Source of the DNA: Roseobacter weihaiensis
Lineage (GTDB): Bacteria > Pseudomonadota > Alphaproteobacteria > Rhodobacterales > Rhodobacteraceae
Length of the DNA: 64,000 nt
Direction of reading: 5' to 3'
NCBI RefSeq assembly: GCF_020622345.1
Contig: NZ_JACNMO010000016.1
Span: 62,001 to 126,000, forward strand
The notes under the pieces were generated by a model. That model searched no databases. It was not told the origin of the DNA and saw nothing but the letters and a program-made list of their open reading frames with translations. This document shows, one piece after another, positions 32,401 to 62,033 of the stretch. Each line of letters starts with the position of its first letter. Positions within the stretch are counted from its first letter, which is position 1. Both the position numbers and the translations under genes were made by a program.

Positions 32401-33449
32401 ATGATAGATCGAAGGAGCACCGTGCTTTTTGCGGGTGCAAGCGTGGCGGCCATTGCACTCTCAACCGCTGCACACGCACAAGAGTTTACGTTTTCAATTC
32501 AGCACTTCCTAAGCCCAAAAGCACCGGCGCAGACCGTGTTGATCGAGCCTTGGGCAAAGGCTGTCGAAGAGGCATCTGACGGCCGCATCGCATTTGAAAT
32601 TTTCCCTGCGATGGCTTTGGGTGGTGCGCCGCCGGAACTCTACAGCCAAGTGCGGGACGGCGTAGTGGATATTGTCTGGACGCTACCGGGGTACACGCCG
32701 GGCACCTTTCCGCGCTTGGAAGTCTTTGAACTGCCGAGCGTACATCTTGGGGATGCGCGCGCGACCAATTTGGCGATCCAGGACATGATGGATGATCTGG
32801 CCGCCGATTTCGAAGACGTCCACCCGTTGTTGGTTCATGTGCACACCATGTGCACACCGGCAATGCGCTGCATCTGGCCAATGGGACGGTCGAAAGCGTT
32901 GCCGATTTTGAAGGCTTGAAAGTGCGCAGCCCCTCCCGGACAGGGGCGTGGATGCTGGAAGAGTTGGGTGCAGAACCCGTCGGAATGCCGGTTCCTGCTT
33001 TGCCGCAGGCTTTGTCAAAAGGCACGGTTGACGCGGGTCTGGTGCCTTTTGAGGTCGCGATCCCGCTGGGTCTGGCTGATCTGACGGAAACATCCGTTGA
33101 ACTGGCCGATGGCGCGCGTTTCGGAACCGCGACCTTCCTGTTTGCGATGAACAAGGACAGCTACAATTCCTTGCCGGCCGATCTTCAGCAAATCATCGAC
33201 GAACAGTCCGGCATTGCTATTACAGCGGCCATGGGGGATGCGTGGAACGACATTGAACCTGTCGGCATCAAACGCGCGTTGGAGGCGGGCAAGACAGTGA
33301 CACAACTGTCCGCCGAAGCGACCGCAGAATTTGCAGGGCCCTTCGATGCGACGGTGGCACGCTGGGTCGAAGAAGCGCAGAGCAACGGCGTTGATGCGGA
33401 GGGTCTTTTGGAAAAATCCCGCGCCGCAATCGCTGCCAATTCGCAATAG
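32401..33449 (+). pseudogene. dctP: TRAP transporter substrate-binding protein (DctP type), frameshifted by an 11-bp duplication
   Basis: Residues 1-26 are a signal peptide ending AHAQ. The DctP fold continues (IQHFLSPKAPAQTVLIEPWA, MALGGAPPELYSQVRDGVVD) to VHPLLVHVHT, where the frame breaks. The rest (GNALHLANGTVESVADFEGL, KVRSPSRTGAWMLEELGAEP, through WVEEAQSNGVDAEGL) lies in a second frame. The break is an exact tandem duplication of ATGTGCACACC; removing one copy restores a 345-residue protein. Two TRAP permease genes follow, so the transporter was probably for 4-hydroxybenzoate or a related acid. Confidence 0.8.
32837..32858 (+). repeat. 11-bp tandem duplication inside dctP
   Basis: ATGTGCACACC at 32837-32847 is repeated without spacing at 32848-32858. 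The extra copy shifts the dctP frame by +2. Such a duplication can arise, and revert, by slipped-strand replication. Confidence 0.85.
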
Positions 33450-35357: not shown

Positions 35358-36539
35358 GTGCCCCAACGACATAAAACCCAAGTTTGCATTATTGGCGCCG
35401 GGCCCAGCGGTCTTTTGCTGTCTCAACTCTTGGCCAAGACAGGCATCCATACGATCGTTCTGGATCGCAAGGATCGCGCCTATATCGAAGGCCGCGTGCG
35501 TGCGGGTGTCCTGGAGCAAGGGACCGTTGACGCGCTGGAGCAGGCAGGCGTCGCAGAACGGTTGCATGCGGAAGGGCTAACACATGACGGGTTCGAGCTT
35601 GCCTTTGACGGTGTCCGCCACCGTATCGACCTGAAAGCACTGACGGGCAGCGCCGTGGTGGTTTACGGGCAAACGGAGGTTACGAAAGACCTCTTTGATG
35701 CCCGTTTCGCCGACAATCAGCAGTTCTTCTTCAATATTGACGACGTCGTCCCAACAGAGCTGAAGTCTGACCAGCCTCAGGTGCATTTTACCCAAGACGG
35801 CGCACAGCATGTGATCACCTGCGACTATATCGCGGGCTGTGACGGGTTCCGCGGCGTATCCCGCGCCGCGATCCCGAATGATGTGCTCAAGACGTTTGAA
35901 CGCGTCTATCCATTCGGTTGGCTGGGGATCCTGGTGGATCAGCCGCCTGTCAGTCATGAGCTGATCTACGCGAACCACGCGCACGGATTTGCCCTTGCGT
36001 CCATGCGCTCAGAGACACGCAGCCGGTATTACATTCAGTGCGAGGCGACCGATTGCGTCTCCGACTGGTCGGATGACCGGTTTTGGGAGGAGTTCGCAAC
36101 GCGCCTCGGACCCGATGCCGCCGCCAATCTGCAAACCGGAGCGTCATTTGAAAAGTCCATCGCGCCGCTGCGTTCCTTTGTGGCCGAACCCATGCGCTAC
36201 GGGAACCTGTTTCTGGCAGGTGACGCTGCGCATATCGTGCCGCCCACCGGTGCCAAGGGGTTGAACCTTGCCGTGGCCGATATTCGGCTGCTGTCGCGGG
36301 CCCTGATTGAACACTACGCTGGCAATGATCACTACATCGACACATACTCTGAAACGGCGCTGAACCGGGTCTGGAAGGTCGAGCGTTTCTCTTGGCAGCT
36401 ATCAACCCTGATGCACCAATTCCCTGAGAACTCACCGTTTGAAAGGCGTATGCAACGCGCGGAATTTGACTATATCACCGAGTCTGAAGCAGCCTCGAAA
36501 GCGATTGCCGAAAACTACATTGGCTTACCGTTGGAGTAG
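35358..36539 (+). CDS. pobA: 4-hydroxybenzoate 3-monooxygenase
   Basis: 393 residues, the family length. The FAD motif CIIGAGPSGLLLSQLLAKTG is at the N-terminus, DRKDRAYIEGRVRAGVLEQG follows, and the second FAD motif GDAAHIVPPTGAKGLNLA lies near residue 290. It converts 4-hydroxybenzoate to protocatechuate with NADPH and O2 in the cytoplasm. The start is GTG at 35358, after TAGGAGCG. It is nine bases after dctM and four bases before the pcaDC fusion, so transport, hydroxylation and ring cleavage are transcribed together. Confidence 0.93.
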   Translation: MPQRHKTQVCIIGAGPSGLLLSQLLAKTGIHTIVLDRKDRAYIEGRVRAGVLEQGTVDALEQAGVAERLHAEGLTHDGFELAFDGVRHRIDLKALTGSAVVVYGQTEVTKDLFDARFADNQQFFFNIDDVVPTELKSDQPQVHFTQDGAQHVITCDYIAGCDGFRGVSRAAIPNDVLKTFERVYPFGWLGILVDQPPVSHELIYANHAHGFALASMRSETRSRYYIQCEATDCVSDWSDDRFWEEFATRLGPDAAANLQTGASFEKSIAPLRSFVAEPMRYGNLFLAGDAAHIVPPTGAKGLNLAVADIRLLSRALIEHYAGNDHYIDTYSETALNRVWKVERFSWQLSTLMHQFPENSPFERRMQRAEFDYITESEAASKAIAENYIGLPLE

Positions 36540-36543
36540 TACG

Positions 36544-37698
36544 ATGGATGTCATCAAGATCAAAGGCTCCTATATCGCCTATAAGCATCGCCCGGGTCTC
36601 GGACGAACGGTGCTGTTCGCCAATTCGCTGGGCAGCGACCAGAGCATTTGGGACGATGTGATTGCCGCCCTGCCTACGGGTTACGGTGTCCTGACCTACG
36701 ATCTGCGCGGTCATGGGCTGAGCGGTGGTGTGGCTGACAGCATCGAAGGTCTGGCGGATGACGCGTCGCAATTGGTCGACGCGCTTGGCCTGCGCGATGT
36801 GTTGTTTTGCGGCGTCTCCATTGGCGGGATGATCGGGCAGGTCTTGGCATCAAAACGTGCAGATGTGATCTGCGCGGCGGTCCTGTGCAACACGGGCCTT
36901 CAGATTGGAACGTCCGCGCGTTGGGCCGAGCGGATTGCTGCGGTTGAAAAGGGCGGCATCGCAAGCATAGCCGAGACGGTCGTGAACAACTGGTTCGGGG
37001 CAGACTACGCCGCAAAGACAGATCGGATGGCCCTGCACCAAGCCATGGTCGCCCGGACCTCAGACACCGGTTATGCCGCCGCCTGCGCCGCCATTCGTGA
37101 CGCAGACCTGACAGAGCATGCGCGCGCCATCAGCATTCCGGTTCTGTGTATCAGCGGCACCCACGACAAATCCGTACCGCCAGAAGCCGTCGAGGCCTTG
37201 GCAGATGTGATCCCAAAAGGCACCTTACGTAATTTCGCTGATCTCGGTCACCTGCCCTGTCTGGAAATGCCCAAGGAACTGGCCGCCTTGATCGAGGCCT
37301 TTGATCCGATCAACGACAATCGCGCTGACGCCGGCATGGCCATCCGCCGTGCGGTGCTCAGCGATGCCCATGTGGACCGCGCGCAGGCACAGATCACGCC
37401 ATTGGATCAGGCCTTTCAAACGCTCATCACCGAGGGCGCGTGGGGCACGGTCTGGGCCAATCCGGGTATCTCGGCACGGGATCGGTCCATCATCACGCTG
37501 GCCTTGCTGGCCGCGACCGGAAACTTCGAAGAAATCCCGATGCACATTCGCGCCACGGCCCGGACCGGCGCATCCCAGCGCGACGTCACGGAAGCCTTTC
37601 AACATGTGGCAATTTACGCAGGCGTCCCCCGCGCCAACCACGCTTTGAAGCTCGCCAAACAGACATTTGCGGAGATGGAGGACAGCGCCGATGACTAA
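36544..37698 (+). CDS. pcaL: Bifunctional 3-oxoadipate enol-lactonase / 4-carboxymuconolactone decarboxylase
   Basis: 384 residues. Residues 1-260 are an alpha/beta-hydrolase PcaD domain with nucleophile Ser in FCGVSIGGMIG, an acid in SGTHDKSVPPE and His in LGHLPCLE. Residues about 265-384 are a PcaC decarboxylase domain (WANPGISARDRSIITLALLA, MHIRATARTGAS, HVAIYAGVPRANHAL). The fusion channels 4-carboxymuconolactone to 3-oxoadipate in one polypeptide, as in PcaL of actinobacteria. The ATG at 36544 follows TTGGAGTAGTACG. Its end overlaps pcaH by eight bases. Confidence 0.9.
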   Translation: MDVIKIKGSYIAYKHRPGLGRTVLFANSLGSDQSIWDDVIAALPTGYGVLTYDLRGHGLSGGVADSIEGLADDASQLVDALGLRDVLFCGVSIGGMIGQVLASKRADVICAAVLCNTGLQIGTSARWAERIAAVEKGGIASIAETVVNNWFGADYAAKTDRMALHQAMVARTSDTGYAAACAAIRDADLTEHARAISIPVLCISGTHDKSVPPEAVEALADVIPKGTLRNFADLGHLPCLEMPKELAALIEAFDPINDNRADAGMAIRRAVLSDAHVDRAQAQITPLDQAFQTLITEGAWGTVWANPGISARDRSIITLALLAATGNFEEIPMHIRATARTGASQRDVTEAFQHVAIYAGVPRANHALKLAKQTFAEMEDSADD

Positions 37699-38416
37699 AA
37701 ACCCCTTCAGCCCCCGTGACCTGCAGTGGCACCCCCCCGCGCTGCATCACGACTATCGCTCCACCCATCTACGCGCGCCGCAGCACAAGCTGTTGCACAT
37801 GCCACAAACAGAGACGGAGCTGACGGGTCCGACCTTTGGGCAGAATGACCTTGGTCCCCTCGACGACGATTTGATCCTGAACTACGCCACCGATGGGCAG
37901 ATGGCGCAAGGCCCACGTATCATCGTGCATGGCAAGCTGTTGGACGAAAACGGACGCGCCGTCGCAGGCAAGCTGATCGAGGTCTGGCAGGCGAATGCAA
38001 GCGGGCGCTATCGCCATGTGAATGACGGCTACCTTGCCCCGCTTGATGACAATTTCGGCGGATGCGGGCGGTGCCTGTCCGGCGCGGATGGCAGTTACAG
38101 TTTCCGCACCATCCTGCCGGGTCCCTACCCATGGCCCAACGGCGGAAACGACTGGCGGCCCGCGCATATCCATTTCTCAGTTTTCGGCGATGGCTTCGCG
38201 CAGCGACTGATCACGCAAATGTATTTCGAGGGAGATCCTCACATCAAGCTGTGCCCAATCGTTCAGTCCATTCCAGATGAGACAGCCATTGATCGGCTTG
38301 TGGCGCGCCTCGATATGGATAAAACCATCCCGATGGATATCCGGGCTTACCGCTTTGATATCGTGTTGCGTGGACGGAATGCGACGCTGTTCGAAAATCA
38401 GATGGAGGGCCGGTGA
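37691..38416 (+). CDS. pcaH: Protocatechuate 3,4-dioxygenase beta subunit
   Basis: 241 residues, an intradiol dioxygenase with the PcaH N-terminal extension. The iron ligands are visible: Tyr in SGRYRHVND, Tyr in GPYPWPNG, and two His in WRPAHIHFSVFG. With PcaG it opens protocatechuate to 3-carboxy-cis,cis-muconate. It overlaps the pcaL end and its stop shares one base with the pcaG start (TGATG), so PcaH and PcaG are made in step. Confidence 0.92.
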   Translation: MTKNPFSPRDLQWHPPALHHDYRSTHLRAPQHKLLHMPQTETELTGPTFGQNDLGPLDDDLILNYATDGQMAQGPRIIVHGKLLDENGRAVAGKLIEVWQANASGRYRHVNDGYLAPLDDNFGGCGRCLSGADGSYSFRTILPGPYPWPNGGNDWRPAHIHFSVFGDGFAQRLITQMYFEGDPHIKLCPIVQSIPDETAIDRLVARLDMDKTIPMDIRAYRFDIVLRGRNATLFENQMEGR

Positions 38417-38970
38417 TGTCTGATTTCAAGGAAAGCCCGTCACAAACCGCGGGTCCCTATGTCCATATCGGTTGCGCGCCGCAGACTGCGGGGCTGGAGC
38501 AACGCGGTATGGGCGCGCCGTTTGGCCATAAGATGATCGCTGGTGTCACGCCAGGCCATGAAATGACGCTTGATATTACCGTTTTGGACGGCGAAGGCGC
38601 GCCCGTCAAAGATGCGCTGATCGAGATCTGGCAGGCCGGACCAGAGGGCAGCTATGCACCGACGGCGCAGTTTTCCAACTGGGGGCGTCAGGCTGCTGAT
38701 TTGACAACTGGACAGGCCCGTTTCCAGACGCTCAAGCCGGGCGCGCTCAAGGGCCAAGCCCCGCATGTTCTGGTCTGGATTGCAGCGCGCGGCATCAACC
38801 TCGCCCTGACCAGCCGCATCTATTTCCCGGACGAAAACAACGCCTCTGATCCATTCATGATCGCCGCAGGTGATCGCGCGGAGACGCTTGTCGCCGCCAA
38901 GGCGGAACCGGGCTACACGCATGTAATCCGCCTCCAAGGCCCTAAAGAAACGGTGTTTTTCGATGTCTGA
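38416..38970 (+). CDS. pcaG: Protocatechuate 3,4-dioxygenase alpha subunit
   Basis: 184 residues. It keeps the intradiol fold (SPSQTAGPYVHIG, ALIEIWQAGPEGSYAP, then HVLVWIAARGINLALTSRIY) but lacks the iron-binding His pair, as alpha subunits do. It pairs with PcaH. The end overlaps the downstream DUF849 gene by eight bases. Confidence 0.9.
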   Translation: MSDFKESPSQTAGPYVHIGCAPQTAGLEQRGMGAPFGHKMIAGVTPGHEMTLDITVLDGEGAPVKDALIEIWQAGPEGSYAPTAQFSNWGRQAADLTTGQARFQTLKPGALKGQAPHVLVWIAARGINLALTSRIYFPDENNASDPFMIAAGDRAETLVAAKAEPGYTHVIRLQGPKETVFFDV

Positions 38971-39808
38971 TGTGCGCGGCAAGCCCTGCATCCTGTGTTG
39001 TGCGATCACTGGGTCGGTGCCGCGCAAATCTGACAACCCTGCTGTTCCAATCACTGTGAGCGAGCAAATCGAAAGCAGCCATGCAGCGGTTGAGGCAGGG
39101 GCGTCGATTATCCACGCCCATGTCCGCAATGAGGATGAAACCCCCTCAAGCGATCCCGAAAAATTTGCGGCCCTCAAGGAAGGGTTGGAAAAGCACTGCC
39201 CCGGCGTAATCATTCAGTTTTCGACCGGGGGACGATCCGGTGCGGGACGTGAACGCGGCGGCATGTTGCCGCTCAGGCCCGATATGGCGTCGCTCTCTGT
39301 GGGGTCGAATAACTTCCCGACCCGCGTTTATGAGAATTCACCCGACTTGGTCACGTGGCTCGCCTCCGAGATGCAGACGCATGCCATCACCCCCGAGATC
39401 GAGGCGTTTGATCTCAGCCATATCCTGCAAGCGCTTCATATGAGCGCGTCAGGCAAGCTTTATGGAAAGCTCTATGTCCAGTTCGTGATGGGCGTGAAAA
39501 ACGCGATGCCCGTGGATCGCGAGGTCTTTGATTTCTACGTCCACATGATGCAAAGCCGCGCACCGCTGGCTGCGTGGTGTGCTGCAGGCATCGGTGCAGC
39601 GCAGGTGACGGTCAACGAATGGGCCATCGCGGCGGGTGGGAACACACGGGCCGGGCTGGAAGACAACATACGTCTGGACAAATCCACCCTCGCCCCGTCG
39701 AATGCCGCCCTGATCGAACGCGCGGCTGATCTTTGCGCCAAATATGACCGCCCTGTGGCCACAGCGGCTCAAGCGCGTGAAATCCTCGGACTGCGGCCAT
39801 ATGTTTGA
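38963..39808 (+). CDS. BKACE (DUF849) beta-keto acid cleavage enzyme, pca-operon copy
   Basis: 281 residues. BKACE enzymes condense a beta-keto acid with acetyl-CoA and split it to acetoacetate and a shortened acyl-CoA, with a zinc ion. Zinc ligands are visible: HAHVRNEDETPSSD (two His) and a Glu in TRAGLEDNIRLDK, next to the conserved Asp and Arg. The N-terminus CILCCAITGSVPRKSDNPAV is typical. It sits between pcaG and pcaB, overlapping both. No pcaI, pcaJ or pcaF is in the window. I infer that the substrate is 3-oxoadipate, yielding succinyl-CoA and acetoacetate. A near paralogue is at 40849-41682. Confidence 0.88.
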   Translation: MSDVRGKPCILCCAITGSVPRKSDNPAVPITVSEQIESSHAAVEAGASIIHAHVRNEDETPSSDPEKFAALKEGLEKHCPGVIIQFSTGGRSGAGRERGGMLPLRPDMASLSVGSNNFPTRVYENSPDLVTWLASEMQTHAITPEIEAFDLSHILQALHMSASGKLYGKLYVQFVMGVKNAMPVDREVFDFYVHMMQSRAPLAAWCAAGIGAAQVTVNEWAIAAGGNTRAGLEDNIRLDKSTLAPSNAALIERAADLCAKYDRPVATAAQAREILGLRPYV

Positions 39809-40847
39809 CCTCGCGACGCATCCTTGGATGCGTGGTCTGTTCGGGGACGATCACCTTGCTGCCATCTTTGCCCCTGAGGCAGAGGTGAAACGCATGCTCA
39901 AAGTCGAAGCGGCTTGGACCCGCGCTTTGGGGGATATTGGCGAAACGCCCGATGCGTACAGCGTTGCAGACAGCATCGAGGCGGCACAGATAGACCCACA
40001 AGATTTACAGGACGGTTTTGCCCGCGATGGCGTGCCCGTTCCCGCGCTCGTCAAGATGTTGCAGGCGCAGCTTGGGCCGGACGCCGCCGAATGGGTTCAC
40101 AAGGGGCTGACCTCCCAGGATGTGATGGACACAAGCCTTGTACTTGCCCTGCAAGGTGTTCTGCGCATTCTTCTGGAGCGCCTGCAAAACTTGGACGAAA
40201 GCCTGGACGATCTGCAGCGGCGGTTTGGCACGGCCCGTCTGGTAGCCTTCACCCGCATGCAGCCGGCACTGGAAACGCGCGTTGCAGAAACGATTGGCCG
40301 TTGGCGGCACCCCGTTCCACGGCTTCTGACCAGTGTGGAAACCGCTCGAAAGCAGGTGGCTCAAATCCAATGGGGCGGGCCAATTGGTATGCGGGACCAC
40401 CCGAATGCCGCACAGCTCGGGGTGGCCTTTGCCAGGAATTTGAACCTGACCGACCCCGGCAGATCATGGCACATGGATCGCAGCATCATCGCCAACGTCG
40501 CGCATGCGCTGGTACAGATCACCACCGCGGCAGGCAAGATTGGCGAGGATATCGCGTTGATGGCGGCGATCGGCCCGTCGCAGATTACTTTGTCCGGTGG
40601 CGGGTCATCTGCCATGGCGCACAAGAACAACCCGGTGAAAGCAGAGGCCCTGATCGCGCTCAGCGATTATGCTGGAACGCTGCAAATGAGCCTGACACGC
40701 GCGGCCCGGCACGAAGGCTTCCGGTCTGGCCGTGCGTGGACGCTGGAATGGATCGCGATGCCGCAGCTTTGCCTTGCAACCGGGGCTTCGCTTGTCCAAA
40801 CAGCCCTTCTGCTTGAATCAATCAACGGGCTTGGAGCGAATGCGTAA
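39801..40847 (+). CDS. pcaB: 3-carboxy-cis,cis-muconate cycloisomerase
   Basis: 348 residues of the fumarase/aspartase superfamily. LTSQDVMDTSLVLALQGVL and the signature GGSSAMAHKNNPVKAEALIA are clear. Some PcaB proteins are about 450 residues; this shorter form is common in Rhodobacteraceae. It converts 3-carboxymuconate to 4-carboxymuconolactone for PcaL. It starts within the DUF849 3' end and is the last gene of the rightward operon. Its stop lies one base from the stop of the converging second DUF849 gene. Confidence 0.9.
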   Translation: MFDLATHPWMRGLFGDDHLAAIFAPEAEVKRMLKVEAAWTRALGDIGETPDAYSVADSIEAAQIDPQDLQDGFARDGVPVPALVKMLQAQLGPDAAEWVHKGLTSQDVMDTSLVLALQGVLRILLERLQNLDESLDDLQRRFGTARLVAFTRMQPALETRVAETIGRWRHPVPRLLTSVETARKQVAQIQWGGPIGMRDHPNAAQLGVAFARNLNLTDPGRSWHMDRSIIANVAHALVQITTAAGKIGEDIALMAAIGPSQITLSGGGSSAMAHKNNPVKAEALIALSDYAGTLQMSLTRAARHEGFRSGRAWTLEWIAMPQLCLATGASLVQTALLLESINGLGANA

Positions 40848-40848
40848 T

Positions 40849-41682
40849 CTAAGCCTGGGGCACTCCCAGTATCTTGCGTGCCTCCTGCCAGGTCGCAACC
40901 GGGCGTTCATATCGCTCGCAGATGTCGACGACCCGTCTTACCAGGGCCGCGTTTGATGGTGCCAGCGTCTCACGATCAAGCCGAACGTTGTCCTCAAGTC
41001 CGGTCCGCGCATGACCACCCGCCGCAACCGACCAGTCATTCAATGTCAACTGATGGGCCCCAATCCCGGCAGCGCACCATTGGGCATCTGCGCCGAACAA
41101 CCGCTTCACCGTCGCGATGTAGAAATCAAACACCGCGCGGTCAGCCGGCATCGCGTTTTTCACGCCCATGACAAACTGCACATAGGGGGTGTCTGCCAAT
41201 CTGCCATCTTCGTGCATTTTCGCGGCCTGCAGGATGTGGCTGAGATCGAAGGCCTCGATTTCCGGCTTGATGCCGTGGGTCTTCATCTTGCCTGCGAGCC
41301 AATCCACCAGATCAGGTGGATTTTCGTAGACACGCGTCGGGAAGTTGTTCGACCCAACCGACAGCGATGCCATGTCGGGCTTGAGGCGCAACATGCCACC
41401 ACAGGTTTTGCCTGCACCCGACCGTCCGCCTGTCGAAAACTGGATGATCATCCCCGGACAATGCGTCTCGATCCCCTCTTTGAGCCGGGCAAATTTCTCG
41501 GGGTCGGATGAGGGCGTTTCGTCGTCATTGCGCACATGGGCATGGACGATGCGCGCCCCGGCCTCAAAGGCCGCGTGCGTGCTTTCAATCTGCTCGGACA
41601 CGGTGATTGGCACCGCCGGATTGTTGGCTTTGGTCGGGAGTGAGCCGGTGATGGCCACGCAGATGATACAGGGAGGTGTCAT
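40849..41682 (-). CDS. BKACE (DUF849) enzyme, catechol-branch copy
   Basis: 277 residues, closely similar to the copy at 38963 (shared SDNPAV/ANNPAVPITVSEQIES, DETPSSDPEKFA, IIQFSTGGRSGAG and MASLSVGSNNFPTRVYEN). The zinc His pair (HAHVRN) and the Glu in RTGLEDNVRLDR are kept. It is the last gene of the leftward intradiol-dioxygenase/TfdB operon. The start is taken at 41682 because CIICVAITGSLP aligns with the other copy's N-terminus; an upstream ATG at 41700 is possible. The role inferred is the same 3-oxoadipate cleavage, dedicated to the catechol-type branch. Confidence 0.86.
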   Translation of the reverse strand: MTPPCIICVAITGSLPTKANNPAVPITVSEQIESTHAAFEAGARIVHAHVRNDDETPSSDPEKFARLKEGIETHCPGMIIQFSTGGRSGAGKTCGGMLRLKPDMASLSVGSNNFPTRVYENPPDLVDWLAGKMKTHGIKPEIEAFDLSHILQAAKMHEDGRLADTPYVQFVMGVKNAMPADRAVFDFYIATVKRLFGADAQWCAAGIGAHQLTLNDWSVAAGGHARTGLEDNVRLDRETLAPSNAALVRRVVDICERYERPVATWQEARKILGVPQA

Positions 41683-41760
41683 GGATGATCTAACTGCCAT
41701 TCTATTGGCTTGGTTTGACAATTTGGGGGCGGCCACCCGAAAGCCGCCCCTCGGGGACGG

Positions 41761-43539
41761 TTATTCAGCCGCCGCGGTAACTTGTACCGCTTCACGACCC
41801 AGAATGCGGCCCATCGCGGCCGTCAAATCGCCCGCTGCTGCCGCAGAAATCACGTCGCACCGGTAGGCCACATGAAAATCAGGCCGGACCAACAGCGCCC
41901 CACTATCGGTCGTGCCGCGCAGATTTGCGAAGGTGCCATAGTGATCTTCAAGCGCTTGGCCGGGGCCGATGATATGCACCGTCACCTCGACGCCGTAGGC
42001 TTCGCACACCGCGTTTGCGGCCGCATGCCAACCTTCGCCGCCCAATCCGGTGAGCAGTGTGAAGCCCCCTTTGCCGCACAGGTCTTTCGTCGAAACCTGT
42101 TGCCCATCTTGCTGGTAAATCCACGCATGGGGAACAGGTGCGCCGGGGCGCGATGACGCCTGATGATACAATTCGTCATCAGCGAAGGTTTCAGGCTCAG
42201 AGCCGTCATCGACAATCGCCATGCTGTCGTAGCGCTGGTTCATCTCGACCCCATGCGCGTTATAGACATAGTCGGTCCCGGCAATCGCATCGCGCAGGGC
42301 CGTCCGCTGCGCCTCTGCCTCGGGCGTGCTGTCCTTGCGGGCGGCCATGTTGGCATACATCTCATCAATGCTCTTGGCCTTGGGCAGCCCCAGTGCCATC
42401 GCGATTGGGGGAAAGTCGCCCAGCGATGTGTTGGCGCGAGTCACAATCTGTTTGGCCACTGGAGCGCGTTCGGTTGTGTATGTCTCCAAAAGCGCAGGGT
42501 CGGCCTGCCCCTTGAGCACCATCGCGATTTTCCAGCACAGGTTGAAGCTGTCCTGGATCGAGGTGTTCGACCCCAAACCATTGGTCGGCGGATGCCGGTG
42601 GATCGCATCGCCCGCCGCAAAGACGCGGCCCTTTTGCAGGTTGGTGGCGTACATCTCGTTCACCGTCCACGTGGATGTCGCCTCGATCTTGACCGGCAGA
42701 TCGGGGTTGCCCACGAGTTTACGCACGATGCTTTTCGCAAAGTCATTGTCGATCTCTGGTGGGCCCTGTTCGACGTCATAGCCCCAAATGGCCAGCCATT
42801 TGTTCCACGGCCGCACCATACGAACAACGCCTATGCCCAAACCGCCGATATCCGAGCCGGGCTGAACGACCCAATACAGAACGGAGGGACGGTGCGCGAC
42901 ATATTCGGTCAGATCGGCCTCGAACAGCATGTTGATCGAACCGGACAGCCCCATCTTGCCTTCCATCGGCAGCTCAAGATCGGACACAATTTGCGAATTC
43001 GCCCCGTCTGCGCCAATCATGTATTTCGCACGGACGTCGAACTCTTCACCGGTCAGACGGTCGCGCAGCGTGGCGGTGACGCCGCTTTGGTCCTGCGTGT
43101 GGCTTAGATATTCCGTGTCAAAACGCACCTTGCCCCCGCTGAGCGCGGCAGAACTGACCAGGATCGGCTCAAGATAGTTCTGCGGGATGTCGCACATGGA
43201 CGTGGGCGAGCACTCATCATAGTCGGCGCGGCGGCGGACATCTGTGCCCCAAGTGCGAATGCGCCCGAACTCTTCCCCTGCGAGGCTCGCACAGATGGTG
43301 TTTTCGCCCATCAGATCATTTGGCACGGCCTTCAGCTTGACCTCATCCTCGATGCCAAGGTCGCGGATCACTTCCATCGTGCGCTGGTTGGTGATATGCG
43401 CGCGGGGCGTGGGCGCGGTCCAACCATATTTGTTGACCAAGAGCGCGTTGATCCCGTAGCGGCCCAAAAGTGCGGCAGCCGCGGCGCCTGCCGGCCCAGT
43501 GCCCACCACCAGAACTTCCGTATGGTACTTTGCTGACAT
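41761..43539 (-). CDS. FAD-dependent phenol hydroxylase, TfdB-like
   Basis: 592 residues, the size of 2,4-dichlorophenol 6-monooxygenases. The FAD motif VLVVGTGPAGAAAAALLGRY is at the N-terminus, APTPRAHITNQRTMEV is the TfdB-type second segment, YMIGADGANS follows, and the GD motif reads AGDAIHRHPPTNGLGSNTSI. A thioredoxin-like C-terminal domain (from about 430) ends the protein. GGGAGG precedes the ATG. It should ortho-hydroxylate a phenol to a catechol with NADPH. It is followed by the BKACE gene and preceded by the ring-cleavage dioxygenase. Whether the substrate is chlorinated cannot be read here. Confidence 0.86.
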   Translation of the reverse strand: MSAKYHTEVLVVGTGPAGAAAAALLGRYGINALLVNKYGWTAPTPRAHITNQRTMEVIRDLGIEDEVKLKAVPNDLMGENTICASLAGEEFGRIRTWGTDVRRRADYDECSPTSMCDIPQNYLEPILVSSAALSGGKVRFDTEYLSHTQDQSGVTATLRDRLTGEEFDVRAKYMIGADGANSQIVSDLELPMEGKMGLSGSINMLFEADLTEYVAHRPSVLYWVVQPGSDIGGLGIGVVRMVRPWNKWLAIWGYDVEQGPPEIDNDFAKSIVRKLVGNPDLPVKIEATSTWTVNEMYATNLQKGRVFAAGDAIHRHPPTNGLGSNTSIQDSFNLCWKIAMVLKGQADPALLETYTTERAPVAKQIVTRANTSLGDFPPIAMALGLPKAKSIDEMYANMAARKDSTPEAEAQRTALRDAIAGTDYVYNAHGVEMNQRYDSMAIVDDGSEPETFADDELYHQASSRPGAPVPHAWIYQQDGQQVSTKDLCGKGGFTLLTGLGGEGWHAAANAVCEAYGVEVTVHIIGPGQALEDHYGTFANLRGTTDSGALLVRPDFHVAYRCDVISAAAAGDLTAAMGRILGREAVQVTAAAE

Positions 43540-43635: not shown

Positions 43636-44415
43636 TTATTCGGCAGCTTCTAGGGATGCCACGGCTTCATCAAGGACGAAGTCGACCTCCATGACACGCA
43701 CGTCGCCCTCGTATTTTTCGGGCACCATGAAATCTGTCCCGCCGCCGTTGCAGCAATCGTCTTCGATGTGCTCGCCGCCCTCAAAATAGGCCTGACTGAT
43801 CAAGTCCCGCTTTCCATCGGCCTGCACCCAATAGTGGATGTGGGCCGGACGCCAGGAGTGGCCGCCCATGTATTCTTCCAGCAGCATCCCTGTCGGTCCC
43901 TTGTTGGGAATTTGGTAGGCCACCGGCAGGATCGACTTGCATTCATATCGGCCGTTTGCATCGGTCGAGATCTTGCCGCGATAGTATTTCTTGTCGAGAT
44001 CGCCATGCTTCTCGATGCCAGAATATGTGCCTTGCGGGGTTGAGTGCCAAACATCAATGACGGCACCCGCCACCGGTTTTCCATCTTGATCGGTGATTTT
44101 GCCACGCATGACCATCTTCGGCAGATCTTTGGCCGACGCCTCGATGGCAAGCTCGCCATTCACATGCGGCACATCAGGCACAAAGTACGGGCCCTGGATC
44201 GCCGCTTTCGATCCTTTGCGTGCTCTATTCTCAATTTCAACAATCGTTGAGTTGAAGAACACATCGACGAGCAGTGGGATTTCTCCGTCCCCCTGCGTCC
44301 TCGCCAGATGCATGATTCCGGCACGGTATTCTGAGAATGTGACGTCATGTTTCCGAAGGACATCGCGAATGGACTCAACAATATCCATGGTAATCGTCGT
44401 TACACGTTCGTTCAT
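43636..44415 (-). CDS. Intradiol (catechol/chlorocatechol 1,2-type) dioxygenase
   Basis: 259 residues, near the length of TfdC-type chlorocatechol dioxygenases and shorter than CatA. The N-terminal helical dimer region (EYRAGIMHLARTQGDGEI) is followed by IQGPYFVPDVPHVNG and DVWHSTPQGTYSG, and the iron ligands are Tyr (GTYSG), Tyr (PVAYQIP) and His/His (WRPAHIHYWV). It cleaves a catechol to a cis,cis-muconate. The ATG at 44415 follows GGGAGGC. It is the first gene after the LysR on the leftward arm. A close alternative is a hydroxyquinol or methylcatechol enzyme. Confidence 0.85.
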   Translation of the reverse strand: MNERVTTITMDIVESIRDVLRKHDVTFSEYRAGIMHLARTQGDGEIPLLVDVFFNSTIVEIENRARKGSKAAIQGPYFVPDVPHVNGELAIEASAKDLPKMVMRGKITDQDGKPVAGAVIDVWHSTPQGTYSGIEKHGDLDKKYYRGKISTDANGRYECKSILPVAYQIPNKGPTGMLLEEYMGGHSWRPAHIHYWVQADGKRDLISQAYFEGGEHIEDDCCNGGGTDFMVPEKYEGDVRVMEVDFVLDEAVASLEAAE

Positions 44416-44493: not shown

Positions 44494-45402
44494 TCATACC
44501 AAAATCGTATCAGAGCTAGCATTGAACGAAACTGTGCGTATGACCTTTAGGAACTCTCTCAAAACCGGTGGCTGATCTTTGCAAAGGAAAATGCAGGATG
44601 ACGGTGCGGTCAGTGTTTCATCGATCAAAGGGACGTAGCCGAGAGTGGGAAACCGCAAAGCGGCAATGGCTTGGGGCACAAGTGTGAAGCGTCCGCCACA
44701 GGCGACCATGGCCAATGCAGCGGCTGAATCCGACGCGACAGTATCAACGGTCAGAGTACGGCCAGCATCCGAGAAAACGCGAATGATCTCATCGGCAAAG
44801 CTGGGACGGTCGCCACTTGGGTAAAGCACCGCCGAAAGCGCATCCAGGTCGCCGAGCGAAAGGCTTTCACGTCGCGACAAGGCAAGATCCGCAGGGACCG
44901 CCGCATAAAGCGGCTCATCCACCAAATGTTCGACCGCGATATCGTCGGTTGTCTGAAAATATCGACCAAAGCCTGCATGAATGCGCCCATCCCGGATCGC
45001 ATCTACCTGCTCTTTTTTGCCCATACGCGTCAGTGTCACCGTGATATAGGGGTAGGCCCGCCGAAATGCGCGCAGGGCAAGCGGGACGGCCCCGTAGACC
45101 GTTGAGCCGAAAAAGGCCAAATCCAACTGACCCAACTCTCCGCGCTCTGCCGCGCGCGTTCGATCAATCGCTGTCCGGGTCTGGGCCAGAACCTTTTTTG
45201 CATCATTCAGAAATATCCGCCCGGCGTCCGTCAGGTTGACGCCTTTGGGCGTTCTATCAAAGAGTTTGGCATTCAATTCATGCTCAAGCGCTTGAATCTG
45301 CCTGCTGATCGGAGGTTGCGAGACGTGCAAGCGTTCGGCAGCACGGCCAATGTTGCCCTCTTCGGCAACGGCGATGAAGTAGCGAAGCTGTCTGAATTCC
45401 AC
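44494..45402 (-). CDS. LysR regulator, CatR/ClcR/TfdR type
   Basis: 302 residues. The N-terminal helix-turn-helix (MEFRQLRYFIAVAEEGNIGR, LHVSQPPISRQIQALEHEL) and the core LDLAFFGSTVYGAVP with ITVTLTRMGKKEQVDAIRDG match the CatR/ClcR/CbnR group, which senses muconates. It diverges from the muconate cycloisomerase, with an ATAC-N7-GTAT site in between, as in cat and clc clusters. It lies upstream of the dioxygenase on the same strand. Confidence 0.88.
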   Translation of the reverse strand: MEFRQLRYFIAVAEEGNIGRAAERLHVSQPPISRQIQALEHELNAKLFDRTPKGVNLTDAGRIFLNDAKKVLAQTRTAIDRTRAAERGELGQLDLAFFGSTVYGAVPLALRAFRRAYPYITVTLTRMGKKEQVDAIRDGRIHAGFGRYFQTTDDIAVEHLVDEPLYAAVPADLALSRRESLSLGDLDALSAVLYPSGDRPSFADEIIRVFSDAGRTLTVDTVASDSAAALAMVACGGRFTLVPQAIAALRFPTLGYVPLIDETLTAPSSCIFLCKDQPPVLREFLKVIRTVSFNASSDTILV

Positions 45403-45494: not shown

Positions 45495-46667
45495 GTGAAT
45501 CTACAAAGCTCGCCAAGTGTAGAAATTGGATCAACCGAGGTTGCCGAACCAGATCGGATCGATAAGGTCGAGGCGATGATCGTCGATGTACCGTTTCGCA
45601 GGCTTCAGCGTTTTGCCCGATTTGAAAGCCGCGCTCAAAGCAGCTTGGTTATCAGACTGTGGTCCAAGGACGGGGCCCAAGGCGTCGGTGAAGCGGTGGC
45701 GCCCTGCGGGCCATGGTGGTCCGGGGATAGTGTTGAGGCCATGCACGCGACGTTCGTGCACTACATCAAACCCTTGCTTATCGGCGCGAAGGCGGATGCA
45801 CCCGGCCCAACGATGCATGCCATTGGTAGGTCGGTGCGCGGCAATAGTTTTGTCAAGGCAGGCGTCGAAATGGCGCTTCTGGATCTGCAGGGCCGTAAAT
45901 TGGGTGTGCCAATCGCGACGCTGCTGGGTGGCACATACCGCACCAATTGTGCGGTCGCCTGGCCGATCGCCAGTGGCGATATTCAGCAAGACTGTGCTGA
46001 AATGGACAACATGCTCGAGACCCGCAGGGCGAGCGCCTTCAAAGTCAAGATGGGCGCCCTGCCCTTGTCCGAGGATATGGCGCGCATCGACGCATATATG
46101 TCGCATTTGAATGGGCGCGCCGGACTGCGCGTTGATCCCAACGAAGCCTGGAGCGAAGCGGAAGCCTTGCCCGCGATGGTCGCCCTGGAAGCCACAGGAA
46201 TAGACTTTGTGGAACAACCGTTGCCCCGTCACCAAATGGCATCCATGGCACGGCTTGCTGCAAAAACCACGCTGCCGCTCATGATCGATGAAGGCGCATG
46301 TTCTGCGGCCGATACGCTGTGCGCTGCCGAGCACGGTGCGGCGCAAATCCTGTCGCTGAAACTTATGAAAGCGGGCGGTATCCTGCCGTCTCTCCGCATG
46401 GCGAACCTGGCCGCCATAACGGGCATGTCGCCCTATATGGGCACATTTCTTGAAACGTCTTTGGGAACGGCGGCCGCACTGCATTTGGCATGCGCGCTCC
46501 CGTCTTTGCCATTCGGCGGAGAGATCATTGGCCCGATGCTAATGTCGGAGGATCTGGTTGAAACGCCAATCCGTTACGTCGATGGTGCGGCACAATTGCC
46601 ATCTGGGCCCGGCCTAGGTGTTGATCTGGATGAGAGCCGCCTGTGCCGGTTCCAGCGCCAGAGCTGA
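45495..46667 (+). CDS. Muconate/chloromuconate cycloisomerase
   Basis: 390 residues of the enolase superfamily (mandelate-racemase/MLE). The capping domain is followed by the Lys motif SAFKVKMGALP, metal ligand regions LRVDPNEAW, FVEQPLPRH and LMIDEGACS, and the second Lys region ILSLKLMKAGGI. MLE enzymes lactonise cis,cis-muconates. The start is GTG at 45495 after AAAGGAAACC. It is on its own rightward arm behind the CatR-type site and converges on the methyltransferase gene. Chloromuconate versus muconate preference cannot be told from sequence reading alone. Confidence 0.88.
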   Translation: MNLQSSPSVEIGSTEVAEPDRIDKVEAMIVDVPFRRLQRFARFESRAQSSLVIRLWSKDGAQGVGEAVAPCGPWWSGDSVEAMHATFVHYIKPLLIGAKADAPGPTMHAIGRSVRGNSFVKAGVEMALLDLQGRKLGVPIATLLGGTYRTNCAVAWPIASGDIQQDCAEMDNMLETRRASAFKVKMGALPLSEDMARIDAYMSHLNGRAGLRVDPNEAWSEAEALPAMVALEATGIDFVEQPLPRHQMASMARLAAKTTLPLMIDEGACSAADTLCAAEHGAAQILSLKLMKAGGILPSLRMANLAAITGMSPYMGTFLETSLGTAAALHLACALPSLPFGGEIIGPMLMSEDLVETPIRYVDGAAQLPSGPGLGVDLDESRLCRFQRQS

Positions 46668-47537: not shown

Positions 47538-48425
47538 CTAGTCTGACGGAACGAACTGATAGCCGTCACCGGCCCGCACCGCACGGCCCGCACATTCCCC
47601 CGGAAAGTGGTTGTTGAACATCACGGTACGCGCGTCTGCATATTGCGCAAGCTTGGCTCGGCGCGTTTCGATAGCGGCATCTGGATCGGAGCAAAACAGT
47701 GTTGGGCATTGCGGATGGGCCAGTTGGAATGGGTGATGCATCAAATCCGCGTTGAATGCGGCGAGAACGGAACCGCCTTCCGTATATTCCAACCCGATCA
47801 TGCCGGGTGAATGGCCAGCAAGGTCAACGACTTGCAGCCCTTCCGCAATGGCCGCGCCCGGCACTACGATCTCGATCAACCCCGCATCCGCGGCCGGTGC
47901 GACCGAATCCGGGATCGAGGTCGACATATACGGAAACTCTTGGTGGCGCGTCGTCCAGAAATCAAATTCGATCTGGCTGACAAGGTGACGCGCGTTTGGG
48001 AATGTCGGAACCCATTCGCCTGCGTTCTTGCGCGTCAACCAGCCGGTGTGGTCCATGTGCAGGTGGGTGAGGAACACGGTATCGACCTGATCCGGCGTTA
48101 CACCTGCCAGTCCCAGATGGGCCAGCCAGTTGGATTTCTTTTCGTGCCAATCGGGGCGAGCTGGGAAATTCCCATCCTCGCCCACAGCACAGTCCACGAC
48201 GATCACGCGCGCGCCCAATTTCAGAACAAAGGACTGATAGGCCATAATCATGCGCCCATCTGCTGCCAGATAGGGGGCCAACCACTCTGGCGCAGTGGCT
48301 TCTGCCGGGACGTTCTTGAGCAACTCGGACGGCAGCCGCGTCGGGCCGGCAGAGTCGACACAGGCGAACACCTGCAGCGATCCAATGGTTTTAGGGGTCA
48401 TGTGAGGGAGTGGGCCAAGGGTCAT
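47538..48425 (-). CDS. MBL-fold hydrolase (lactonase-like)
   Basis: 295 residues with a full metallo-beta-lactamase metal set: THLHMDHTGWL (His-x-His-x-Asp-His), a later His in LAGHSPGMIG, the bridging Asp in AFNADLMHH and a last His in NNHFPGE. This pattern is shared with N-acyl-homoserine lactonases and other lactonases. It has no signal peptide. It sits between the cycloisomerase and the maleylacetate reductase, where chlorocatechol clusters carry a dienelactone hydrolase, which is absent here. I infer that it could open the lactone, but quorum quenching or another ester hydrolysis is possible. Confidence 0.78.
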   Translation of the reverse strand: MTLGPLPHMTPKTIGSLQVFACVDSAGPTRLPSELLKNVPAEATAPEWLAPYLAADGRMIMAYQSFVLKLGARVIVVDCAVGEDGNFPARPDWHEKKSNWLAHLGLAGVTPDQVDTVFLTHLHMDHTGWLTRKNAGEWVPTFPNARHLVSQIEFDFWTTRHQEFPYMSTSIPDSVAPAADAGLIEIVVPGAAIAEGLQVVDLAGHSPGMIGLEYTEGGSVLAAFNADLMHHPFQLAHPQCPTLFCSDPDAAIETRRAKLAQYADARTVMFNNHFPGECAGRAVRAGDGYQFVPSD

Positions 48426-48755: not shown

Positions 48756-49817
48756 TTATGCATTCGGTCGGTCCCCCGCCCAGGCGGCGGACAAGGTTGC
48801 CTTGAGAGCATCAGCTTCAAGTGGGCGTGGGTTGAAATACGGGTTTTCCAAGGTGATCTGAACAGCCCGTTCGATACCGTCTTCGGGCATGCCCAGGTCG
48901 CGCAGGCTTGTCGGGGCGCCCCCCGATTGTGCAACATCGAAAAGGGCTGCCGCTGGCGTGTCGGACCCGGTGGCCCGGCGCAGTGCCGCAATCGCATTTG
49001 GCACCGCTGGGGCGTTATAGGCCAGCGCATGGGGCAGCACGACCGTATGGGTTTCCGCATGCGGCAAGTTAAACGACCCGCCCAGCACATGGCACAGCTT
49101 GTGATGCAGCGCCACGCCACCAGAGCCCAAGCAAATCGCGCAAAGCCAGGCACCATAAAGCACATCTGCGCGGGCATCTACATCCTGCGGGCGCTCCTGC
49201 ACCTGCCCAAGGGCTGCAACCATCTTGGCAATCCCGTCCTCGGCCATCAGCGACAGAACAGGGTTTGCTTCTTCGGCATAAAGCGCCTCAACCGCATGGG
49301 CGATTGCATTCATGCCACTTGTTACGGTCATGACAGGTGGCAGAGTGAGCGTATAGTTCACGTCGTAAATGACCGTTTCAGGCAGCACCTTTTGGGTCTT
49401 TCGGGTCGTTTTGCGCCCCTCTTCCGTCTGACCAATAATCGTCGTCATCTCCGACCCCGCATAAGACGTCGGCAGCACAACCTGCGGGCAGTCGGTTCTG
49501 AGGGCAATGGCCTTGCCCAGACCGATGGTCGATCCGCCGCCGATCGATACAACACCGGTGGCGCCCGAGCGATGATAGGCTTCTATCGCCCGCTCCGTCA
49601 CATTCACCGGCGTGTGCATCGTGGCTTCGGCAAACAGCCCGGCACTGCGCGCACCCAGCAGCTCGACCAGGGCTTCACCCTGCTCTTTCTGCGGCGGTGT
49701 GGTGAGAACCAGCGCTTTTTCGATGCCCAGTTTTTCGACCTCGGCTGATAGCCTTGCCGTCGTGCCAACGCCGAAAATCACGCGGGCCGGATGGCCAGTA
49801 TAGATAAACGGCTGCAT
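48756..49817 (-). CDS. Maleylacetate reductase
   Basis: 354 residues of the iron-containing alcohol dehydrogenase family. The N-terminus FIYTGHPARVIFGVG, the NADH motif VVSIGGGSTIGLGKAIALRT, MNAIAHAVEALYAEEANP, LHHKLCHVLGGSFNLPHAET and the final LPHALAYNAPAVP are typical of maleylacetate reductases. It reduces maleylacetate to 3-oxoadipate. I chose the ATG at 49817, seven bases after AAGGAA, because it matches the family N-terminus; longer starts exist at 49835 and 49889. The presence of this enzyme argues for a modified ortho or hydroxyquinol route. Confidence 0.87.
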   Translation of the reverse strand: MQPFIYTGHPARVIFGVGTTARLSAEVEKLGIEKALVLTTPPQKEQGEALVELLGARSAGLFAEATMHTPVNVTERAIEAYHRSGATGVVSIGGGSTIGLGKAIALRTDCPQVVLPTSYAGSEMTTIIGQTEEGRKTTRKTQKVLPETVIYDVNYTLTLPPVMTVTSGMNAIAHAVEALYAEEANPVLSLMAEDGIAKMVAALGQVQERPQDVDARADVLYGAWLCAICLGSGGVALHHKLCHVLGGSFNLPHAETHTVVLPHALAYNAPAVPNAIAALRRATGSDTPAAALFDVAQSGGAPTSLRDLGMPEDGIERAVQITLENPYFNPRPLEADALKATLSAAWAGDRPNA

Positions 49818-49991
49818 TGCGTTTCCTTGTGTCATGACCCCGCGCCTGGGGTTGCGTTGTGATGAAAGGGCGGGGCCTTCTCGCGTCACTCAAACGCAGT
49901 CTGACCTGACAAATCCAATACTGATTAATATGTTGCTCCATACATAAAGCGTATCAGGGGCGAGTTTGATCGTTCTGTCTGAGCAAGGCAT

Positions 49992-60812: not shown

Positions 60813-62033
60813 GGTTTCAACTGATCGCCGCAACACAGGCCTCGAATTTCTCTGCTGGGGTTCGGTATTGCAAGGTTTTTCGAGGCCGCTCGTTCGGCTG
60901 GCGTGCGACGGCACTGAGTTTGGCTTGGCTAAAGCCTGATATGTCAGTGCCTTTGGGGAAGTATTGGCGAAGCAACCGGTTGGTATTTTCATTGCTACCG
61001 CGTTGCCAAGGTGACTGCGGATCACAAAAATAGACGTCAATCCTTGTCGCTATGGTGAACGTCACATGTCCGGCCATCTCAGATCCACGGTCCCATGTCA
61101 GTGACCGATACAGCTCTTTGGGCAACTTGCGGGCCTGCTTGATCAGGGCCGCAACAACACTTTGAGTGTCCTTGTTCTCGACTTTGGCCAGCATCACAAA
61201 CCGGGAATGGCGCTCCACGAGTGTGGCGATGTAGCTGTTGTTAGACCCCACGATCAGGTCGCCCTCCCAGTGCCCCGGCACGGCCCGATCCTCGACCTCT
61301 GGAGGGCGCTCACTGATCGGAATTGCGTCCTTGATCTTAGGCAGTTTCAACCCTTTCTGGGTCGCATGACCCGATCGTCTAACTGCTCGTGGACTGCGAA
61401 GACATTCCTGTAATTCCTTCTTCAATACGCCACGAGTTTGCACATAAAGACTGCGATAGATCGTCTCGTGGGACACGCGATGCTGTTCCTCGACCGGATG
61501 TTTCCGCTTGAGCCAACCCGCGATCTGCTGCGGTGACCATTTCCGACGCAGCTTGCGTGCAATCAGTTGGCACAATGGATCATTGGACGAGAGTTTACAT
61601 GATTTGGTTCGCGTTACGCAGTCCCAAGCCCGCTGATCCGAGCGTGCCGCGCGATAGGCCTGACGCCCACCATTTCTGCGAATCTCTCGGCTGATCGTTG
61701 AAGGCGACCGGTTCAAGCTCTTGGCGATAGACCGTAAGGACCGCTCTGAAACCAAGCCGCGAGATATCTCCTCCCGTTCCGCCAGGCTCAAAGCAAATCG
61801 CGACCTCTTACGGAGAGGTGGCCGGATCCCGCCAAACAGCGCTAAATGCGGAAAGATCGAAGAAGACGCACGATTAAAATGCCGTCCAATCGAACTCATA
61901 GACTCTCCCCGCTGCCACCGATCCCACATCTCGGATTTCTGTTTGTCCGTGTAAAACGTCCGCGTCCGATACTTCATCTCTCACACTCCATCTTTCCAAA
62001 AAGATCAAAGTGTTGCGCTCACCCGTTGAAACC
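60813..62033 (-). mobile_element. IS30-family insertion sequence
   Basis: Inverted ends share the core GGTTTCAAC: 60813-60821 and its inverse GTTGAAACC at 62025-62033, each inside a longer imperfect match. The size (about 1.2 kb) fits IS30. The element encloses one intact transposase. Confidence 0.72.
60817..61977 (-). CDS. IS30-family transposase
   Basis: 386 residues, intact. The N-terminal helix-turn-helix (RSLRSIAKSLNRSPSTISRE) is followed by the DDE catalytic core: Asp in HWEGDLIVGSNN, Asp in LTWDRGSEMAGH and Glu in NENTNRLLRQYFPKGTD. The stop codon lies in the left inverted repeat, as often in this family. This is the only IS transposase in the window with no visible frameshift, so the element may be active. 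Confidence 0.9.
   Translation of the reverse strand: MKYRTRTFYTDKQKSEMWDRWQRGESMSSIGRHFNRASSSIFPHLALFGGIRPPLRKRSRFALSLAEREEISRGLVSERSLRSIAKSLNRSPSTISREIRRNGGRQAYRAARSDQRAWDCVTRTKSCKLSSNDPLCQLIARKLRRKWSPQQIAGWLKRKHPVEEQHRVSHETIYRSLYVQTRGVLKKELQECLRSPRAVRRSGHATQKGLKLPKIKDAIPISERPPEVEDRAVPGHWEGDLIVGSNNSYIATLVERHSRFVMLAKVENKDTQSVVAALIKQARKLPKELYRSLTWDRGSEMAGHVTFTIATRIDVYFCDPQSPWQRGSNENTNRLLRQYFPKGTDISGFSQAKLSAVARQPNERPRKTLQYRTPAEKFEACVAAIS

Follow-up and report, generated by a model that had tools for sequence, protein, structure and literature searches.

The beta-ketoadipate pathway is the textbook route for the breakdown of lignin-derived and marine aromatics. Several studies describe enzymes of the BKACE type (DUF849, COG3246) in connection with it. 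In Ralstonia eutropha H16, a COG3246 protein found with catBCD has been proposed to cleave beta-ketoadipate; a link to pcaHG was noted, and the family was tied to CatM/BenM and not to the ClcR/TfdR regulons (PMC6449761). In Methylobacterium, a DUF849 gene lies between pcaG and pcaB in operons that contain no pcaI, pcaJ or pcaF (PMC8963497, citing Bastard et al. 2014), and the reaction has been stated for the pca genes of this genus (PMC12379598), while, on the contrary side, PcaIJ and PcaF are counted among the aromatic-island enzymes of other Methylobacterium strains (PMC12542667). Bastard et al. are reported to place beta-ketoadipate in BKACE group G3, with G4 taking negatively charged substrates (PMC4922564), another BKACE acts on deoxyribonate (PMC6365646) and one lies within a betaine/carnitine gene region (PMC12421898). 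The present analysis concerns two BKACE genes, BKACE1 and BKACE2, in a stretch of 64,000 nucleotides from Roseobacter weihaiensis (assembly GCF_020622345.1, contig NZ_JACNMO010000016.1, positions 62,001 to 126,000; hereafter the window). Both proteins are predicted from their sequences to split 3-oxoadipate with acetyl-CoA, closing two ring-cleavage branches, a reading that we consider likely. An earlier note on this DNA had proposed such an ending; the idea was already in print, for the catechol branch in 2019 (the Ralstonia/Cupriavidus cluster of PMC6449761) and for the pca branch in 2022 and 2025 (the two Methylobacterium studies PMC8963497 and PMC12379598).

As in the Methylobacterium pca clusters, the rightward run of the window (pobA, fused pcaDC, pcaH, pcaG, BKACE1 and pcaB; Table 1) holds a BKACE between pcaG and pcaB, is devoid of pcaIJ and pcaF, and leads to the same proposed reaction. 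It differs from them in that a second BKACE stands at another ring-cleavage cluster and in that CoA-transferases were searched genome-wide. This second cluster faces the pca run and comprises, leftward, BKACE2, a monooxygenase whose TfdB-like name is our assumption, a chlorocatechol-type dioxygenase and a LysR regulator. Beyond the regulator lie a divergent cycloisomerase gene and then, again leftward, genes for a methyltransferase, a metallo-beta-lactamase-like protein and a maleylacetate reductase. The likeness to R. eutropha H16 is that a BKACE is proposed for the catechol branch, but the cluster found here is chlorocatechol-type, with TfdB-like and maleylacetate reductase genes. No description of a BKACE in a chlorocatechol-type cluster was found in a search of the open-licence literature; among the BKACE-type papers that it listed, only PMC6449761 mentions chlorocatechol. 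The placement of both genes agrees with the earlier note. BKACE1 is embedded between its neighbours, overlapping pcaG (end 38970) and pcaB (start 39801, a homology-based choice of start codon) by 8 bp each. BKACE2 closes the leftward operon 24-78 bp behind the tfdB-like gene, the range being set by an ATG at 41682 and an in-frame upstream GTG at 41736; it runs on the minus strand with tfdB, the dioxygenase and LysR, and its end is 1 bp from that of pcaB.

Both proteins exceed the curated cut-off (350 bits) of NF053568, the equivalog model for 3-oxoadipate:acetyl-CoA acetyltransferase, named CUPNH, and match PF05853 over its whole length (309.4 bits for BKACE2; gathering score 24.8). Their closest solved relatives are 3fa5, 3chv and 3no5, the last of which scores 413.8 and 407.1 bits and is, we believe, a Cupriavidus protein. 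The His-x-His pair and the GLEDN motif are conserved in BKACE1 and BKACE2 alike, as the earlier note had said; the features expected of a BKACE are the His-x-His pair and the Glu of the zinc site, and a Glu-Asp motif. The two paralogues, called near-identical in that note, in fact share 72% identity over 271 residues. An origin of the pair by recent duplication inside the window was ruled out, as the two fall into separate clades (100/99 for BKACE1; 98/87 with locus L087 and 93/90 in a wider group for BKACE2). Both reading frames are unbroken and the remaining checked motifs are intact. The exception is in BKACE1, which differs from its NF053568 relatives in reading GGN (39635-39655) where 64 of the 65 aligned homologues, BKACE2 included, have the His of GGH; it also carries Ala where Thr is usual, and 7 of the 65 sequences have Ala there. 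The GGH position is Asp in the distant solved relative 3lot, so that not every member of the family has this His. As a separate observation, a BKACE fragment elsewhere (L016:7730-8002, corresponding to G000:C18:40741-40992) shares 76% identity with BKACE2 across 91 residues and represents a remnant of a third copy; its neighbours are presumably phoB and aroQ, a reading made without a model scan.

In the proposed route, the protocatechuate branch would reach 3-oxoadipate through the PcaDC fusion, and the catechol- or chlorocatechol-type branch through maleylacetate reductase or an enol-lactone. The presumably zinc-dependent BKACE1 and BKACE2 would convert 3-oxoadipate and acetyl-CoA to succinyl-CoA and acetoacetate. 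Acetoacetate would be activated with succinyl-CoA by the only CoA-transferase pair of the genome, which is ScoAB-like, and the resulting acetoacetyl-CoA would be split by an ordinary acetoacetyl-CoA thiolase. By arithmetic, BKACE, ScoAB and this thiolase together turn 3-oxoadipate and CoA into succinate and acetyl-CoA, which is the net result of PcaIJ and PcaF. The core of the earlier proposal, cleavage of 3-oxoadipate with acetyl-CoA, is supported by the family fit, by the lack of a linked pcaIJ or catIJ and by the association with pcaH described below, but its description as thiolase-free is wrong for the whole route, because acetoacetate must still pass through a CoA-transferase and a thiolase.

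The window belongs to contig C7 of a genome of 5.35 Mb in 91 contigs (99.99% complete). Across this genome, PF01144 matches two genes, which form one ScoAB-like pair on contig C15, unlinked to the window, and the single TIGR02429 match is a member of the same pair. The PF01144 search thus found no CoA-transferase pair linked to ring-cleavage genes and none on C7; in a sensitivity check it detected the CatI/CatJ type at 141.1 and 72 bits. A Litoreibacter CatI query gave a single genome match (E 8.3e-4). The window is also free of pcaF-type thiolases, the five pcaF-model matches being on C57, C68, C13, C1 and C13. The absence of pcaIJ and pcaF from the window, as noted earlier, therefore holds. 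The idea of a genome without any pcaF-type thiolase was rejected, as the C57 protein passes the cut-off (618.2 against 597 bits). Next to it are an acyl-CoA ligase (359.8 bits to the benzoate-CoA ligase model, below the cut-off of 375.25) and a salicylyl-CoA hydroxylase/oxidoreductase-type protein (1297.2 bits, cut-off 1078). A further, small member of the run, read without a model scan, is presumably RidA-like. The likely home of this pcaF-like gene is another aromatic-CoA cluster. The whole-genome search for pcaIJF suggested earlier thus returns a thiolase at pcaF level and no clear pcaIJ, although the model cannot tell ScoA from PcaI.

Plasmid records support the proposed route and indicate how acetoacetate may be handled. 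In Phaeobacter inhibens P88, Sulfitobacter CB2047 and Marinibacterium anthonyi, scoA and scoB lie directly behind BKACE on plasmids, within pca or benzoate/catechol clusters, and no thiolase is annotated in the stretches shown; the P. inhibens P88 order is pcaC-pcaH-pcaG-BKACE-scoA-scoB-pcaD-pcaB. By coordinates, scoA also follows BKACE in two Paracoccus aminovorans records, and it does so in at least five of the 40 BKACE plasmid records listed (87 were found). Placement of scoA(B) right behind BKACE, next to dioxygenase, benzoate or pca genes, was recorded at loci L089, L109, L140, L141 and L142. In Ruegeria pomeroyi, BKACE comes after pcaG and no scoAB occurs within the stretch, and the Ruegeria sp. 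THAF33 record stops behind BKACE. ScoA of the window's genome is 80.7-90.0% identical to ScoA of P. inhibens, Sulfitobacter, M. anthonyi and P. aminovorans. A designed cycle, described in PMC11961710, employs BKACE, CoA-transferase and thiolase in that order, and BKACE15 is inhibited by acetoacetate there; by analogy, such inhibition is a possible reason for the location of scoAB beside BKACE.

A survey of 198 genomes of the same family revealed a strong association between BKACE and pcaH. A BKACE above the NF053568 cut-off is present in 141 genomes and pcaH above its cut-off in 126; BKACE occurs in 117 of the 126 pcaH genomes against 24 of the 72 without pcaH (hand-tallied; Fisher p 5e-19, uncorrected for kinship). 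At 73 of 130 pcaH loci a listed BKACE follows downstream on the same strand at a distance of under 2 kb; three more loci have one within 10 kb. The other 54 loci hold BKACE in six cases and CatI, CatJ and PcaF in two, so that 82 of the 130 have a BKACE, counting those inside 10 kb and those on the fetched stretch, and CatIJ with PcaF was dropped as a general answer for BKACE-less pca loci. At the loci without a listed BKACE, queries with ScoA and ScoB of the window's genome gave a single 35% match (L027), these being the only queries used for canonical PcaIJ, which distant forms may escape. An extra or different CoA-transferase pair was detected in 8 of the 9 pcaH genomes without BKACE and in 7 of 20 hand-picked BKACE-positive genomes (p 0.014; two of the nine are 64% and 78% complete). 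A Litoreibacter-type CatI (at least 64% identity) occurs in 4 of the 198 genomes. Among the 150 listed BKACEs above the cut-off, two within 20 kb of each other are seen only in the window's genome. Forty lone BKACE loci were also fetched; an intradiol dioxygenase match lies within 7 kb in 14 and pca genes accompany three, and L083 has only a 24% monooxygenase match.

The second cluster was compared with its relatives through a contig scan with the window's dioxygenase, which yielded five loci in four genomes. The dioxygenase and the metallo-beta-lactamase-like gene are kept in all five, and the TfdB-like gene, the LysR gene (at least 60%) and the reductase in four each. In two of them, L018 (Litoreibacter roseus) and L021 (a Paracoccaceae metagenome-assembled genome), CatI-like, CatJ-like and pcaF genes adjoin the reductase; the CatIJ name is our assumption, and the CatI, CatJ and PcaF model scans covered the L018 proteins only. 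In the related cluster these genes belong to the step that consumes 3-oxoadipate, as BKACE2 would, whereas the window's cluster contains no CatIJ or PcaF and has BKACE2, with the unlinked ScoAB-like pair elsewhere. A CatIJ-type pair is present in three of the four relative genomes (in the metagenome-assembled genome G198 by score pattern only). The fourth, Roseivivax jejudonensis, has a ScoAB-type pair only and one BKACE above the cut-off, which is not in the fetched locus; at least one such BKACE is present in all four.

In a tree of 65 BKACEs, BKACE1 falls within a 100/99 clade of four pca copies, and BKACE2 is sister to the L087 copy (98/87). The wider BKACE2 group (93/90) also contains the pca copy L133 and four copies with an intradiol dioxygenase nearby (L087, L089, L109 and L117). 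The number of context-label changes over the tree is 15 for pca against 21.1 when shuffled and 10 for intradiol against 13.7, and the genomic context of BKACE is inherited only in part. BKACE2 would accordingly derive from a lineage mostly found beside intradiol dioxygenases and would occupy a cluster that carries CatIJ-like and pcaF genes in some relatives. A run of tfdB, dioxygenase and BKACE recurs in L086, L092, L103, L105 and L107. The dioxygenases of L087, L100 and L103 are closest to the solved 6-chlorohydroxyquinol dioxygenase 8r2x and the window's to 3th1, and none of eight lone-locus dioxygenases reaches an NCBIfam cut-off. What is new here is of modest extent: a second BKACE, of separate descent, in a chlorocatechol-type cluster whose relatives carry CatIJ-PcaF at two of five loci, and a testable re-reading of Roseovarius nubinhibens data.

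Several observations weigh against a BKACE ending for both branches. With ScoA and PcaI indistinguishable to the family model, the C15 pair and the C57 thiolase could perform the classical steps of PcaIJ and PcaF from unlinked positions, with the BKACEs acting on another beta-keto acid or as accessories. That thiolase passes the pcaF cut-off, one pair passes TIGR02429/PF01144, and loss of the 3-oxoacid CoA-transferase to which pcaIJ was assigned stops growth of R. nubinhibens on 4-hydroxybenzoate (PMC12442348). The same study reports that pcaF is dispensable and unresponsive to substrate, with 'crosstalk' with beta-oxidation thiolases, as a BKACE route predicts; the words DUF849, BKACE and aminohexanoate do not appear in its main text. 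Against the classical ending, a CoA-transferase match of at least 240 bits occurs in 24 of 29 and in three of four genomes examined, with or without BKACE, the ScoA is 80-90% identical to ScoA proteins encoded directly behind BKACE, the C57 gene sits in its aromatic-CoA cluster, and BKACE occurs at far more pcaH loci than CatIJ does. Further difficulties for the BKACE ending come from the survey, as 46 of the 130 pcaH loci lack both BKACE and CatIJ over the stretch examined (some end at contig ends), two of these (L051, L068) carry a pcaF-like gene, and scoAB behind BKACE is rarer in genome loci (two of 40 lone loci, L089 and L109, and none of 20 pca loci) than the plasmids would suggest. Two lone BKACEs lie near pcaF-like genes (L095, 66% identity; L116, 58%). 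This rarity and these two neighbours slightly lower confidence in the BKACE route and raise that in the classical ending, though the latter is still judged quite unlikely. In addition, 22 of the 40 lone loci (range L079-L116) have no recognised ring-cleavage gene nearby, and together with the BKACEs in 24 of the pcaH-less genomes this makes other roles of 3-oxoadipate-type BKACEs likely.

The assignment of each enzyme to its branch meets objections of its own. BKACE is present in none of the five relative loci, so that the idea of a conserved cluster of exactly this kind that includes BKACE2 was not borne out, and the membership of BKACE2, and with it a branch specificity that we infer, is drawn from position and direction in one genome. 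The dioxygenase itself turns up in few genomes (4 of 394 at E<=1e-80, the window's own included, and not in the one same-genus genome listed), the BKACE2 group, with 93/90, does not reach the starred level of support, and parts of the tree are weakly supported, with 15 of its 62 inner branches starred and 25 open. BKACE2 might then be a redundant passenger that arrived by recombination beside the pca cluster, in keeping with its end 1 bp from pcaB and with the Roseivivax BKACE outside the fetched locus. Its intact, co-directional frame close behind tfdB argues otherwise, as do its grouping with BKACEs of which four of the five other members adjoin intradiol dioxygenases and the recurring tfdB-dioxygenase-BKACE runs, where the L103 dioxygenase, the sole one of these runs checked against structures, is hydroxyquinol-type; on balance the passenger explanation is doubtful. 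A weakened BKACE1, with BKACE2 working for both branches, is improbable. BKACE1 alone has Asn for the GGH His, with the less usual Ala, but Asp stands there in 3lot, its frame is intact and overlaps both neighbours, and its other checked motifs are kept. Cleavage of 3-oxoadipate by both BKACEs thus remains the preferred reading.

The features of the window that bear on the two branches are collected in Table 1. The enol-lactonase, which the earlier note read as PcaL, is a PcaD-PcaC fusion that falls marginally short of the cut-off of the PcaDC model. The metallo-beta-lactamase-like protein may hydrolyse a lactone in the route. PF01738 has no matches on the window's contig in a profile search, and the idea that this gene is the sole possible dienelactone hydrolase was dropped, as a good protein of that family (153.3 bits) is encoded on contig C90.

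Table 1. Coordinates of the pca run and the chlorocatechol-type cluster, with supporting matches
Feature	Position	Strand	Evidence
pobA, 4-hydroxybenzoate 3-monooxygenase	35358..36539	+	TIGR02360 617.2 bits (cut-off 538.7)
Fused PcaD-PcaC (enol-lactonase / decarboxylase)	36544..37698	+	NF051488 (PcaDC model) 388.5 bits (cut-off 390); TIGR02427 261.8 and TIGR02425 175.1, both above cut-off
pcaH	37691..38416	+	TIGR02422 337.9 bits (cut-off 296.4)
pcaG, protocatechuate 3,4-dioxygenase alpha	38413..38970	+	TIGR02423 161.6 bits (cut-off 126.25)
BKACE1, predicted 3-oxoadipate:acetyl-CoA cleavage enzyme, protocatechuate branch	38963..39808	+	NF053568 471.7 bits; PF05853 300.1 bits; 100/99 clade of four pca-linked BKACEs
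pcaB, 3-carboxymuconate cycloisomerase	39801..40847	+	PRK05975 338.4 bits (below cut-off 371); TIGR02426 276.4 (below 355.75)
BKACE2, predicted 3-oxoadipate:acetyl-CoA cleavage enzyme, catechol-type branch	40849..41736 (ATG start at 41682)	-	NF053568 497.9 bits; 98/87 sister of an intradiol-dioxygenase-adjacent BKACE
TfdB-like FAD aromatic monooxygenase	41761..43539	-	FAD monooxygenase models, none above cut-off among 25 matches listed; copies with 75-86% identity at 4 of 5 relative loci
Chlorocatechol-type intradiol dioxygenase	43636..44415	-	TIGR02465 359.7 bits (cut-off 359.25); best solved relative 3th1 (chlorocatechol 1,2-dioxygenase)
LysR-type regulator	44494..45402	-	PF00126 and PF03466; best NCBIfam models AlsR, others including BenM and CatM, none above cut-off among 25 listed
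Muconate/chloromuconate cycloisomerase	45495..46667	+	TIGR02534 363 bits (cut-off 334.95)
Metallo-beta-lactamase-fold, lactonase-like protein	47538..48425	-	PF00753; NF047979 83.2 bits (below cut-off 360); kept at all five relative loci
Maleylacetate reductase	48756..49889	-	Fe-ADH domains; solved maleylacetate reductases 3w5s 402.9 and 3hl0 398.2 bits

Three other features of the window were noticed. The solute-binding gene dctP of a TRAP transporter (32401-33449), followed downstream by dctQ and dctM, is broken into two overlapping frames that cover profile positions 3-105 and 125-281, owing to a frameshift or an assembly error. A molybdopterin-binding oxidase gene (29055-31181) has a terminal tail that is, by eye, apparently out of frame. 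A transposase with HTH_38 and rve domains, presumably IS30-like, is located at 60817-61977.

Should BKACE be the usual end of the pathway in this family, many genomes would be misannotated in the last steps or seemingly incomplete, and models of aromatic carbon flux would omit an acetoacetate intermediate. The genetics of R. nubinhibens, as given in PMC12442348, would also find a simpler explanation. It is an evenly balanced matter whether 'pcaIJ' of that strain corresponds to ScoAB acting on acetoacetate, from which the dispensability of pcaF and the thiolase crosstalk would follow; this presupposes a BKACE in the strain. For the chlorocatechol-type cluster, the window suggests that one enzyme can replace its CoA-transferase and thiolase end.

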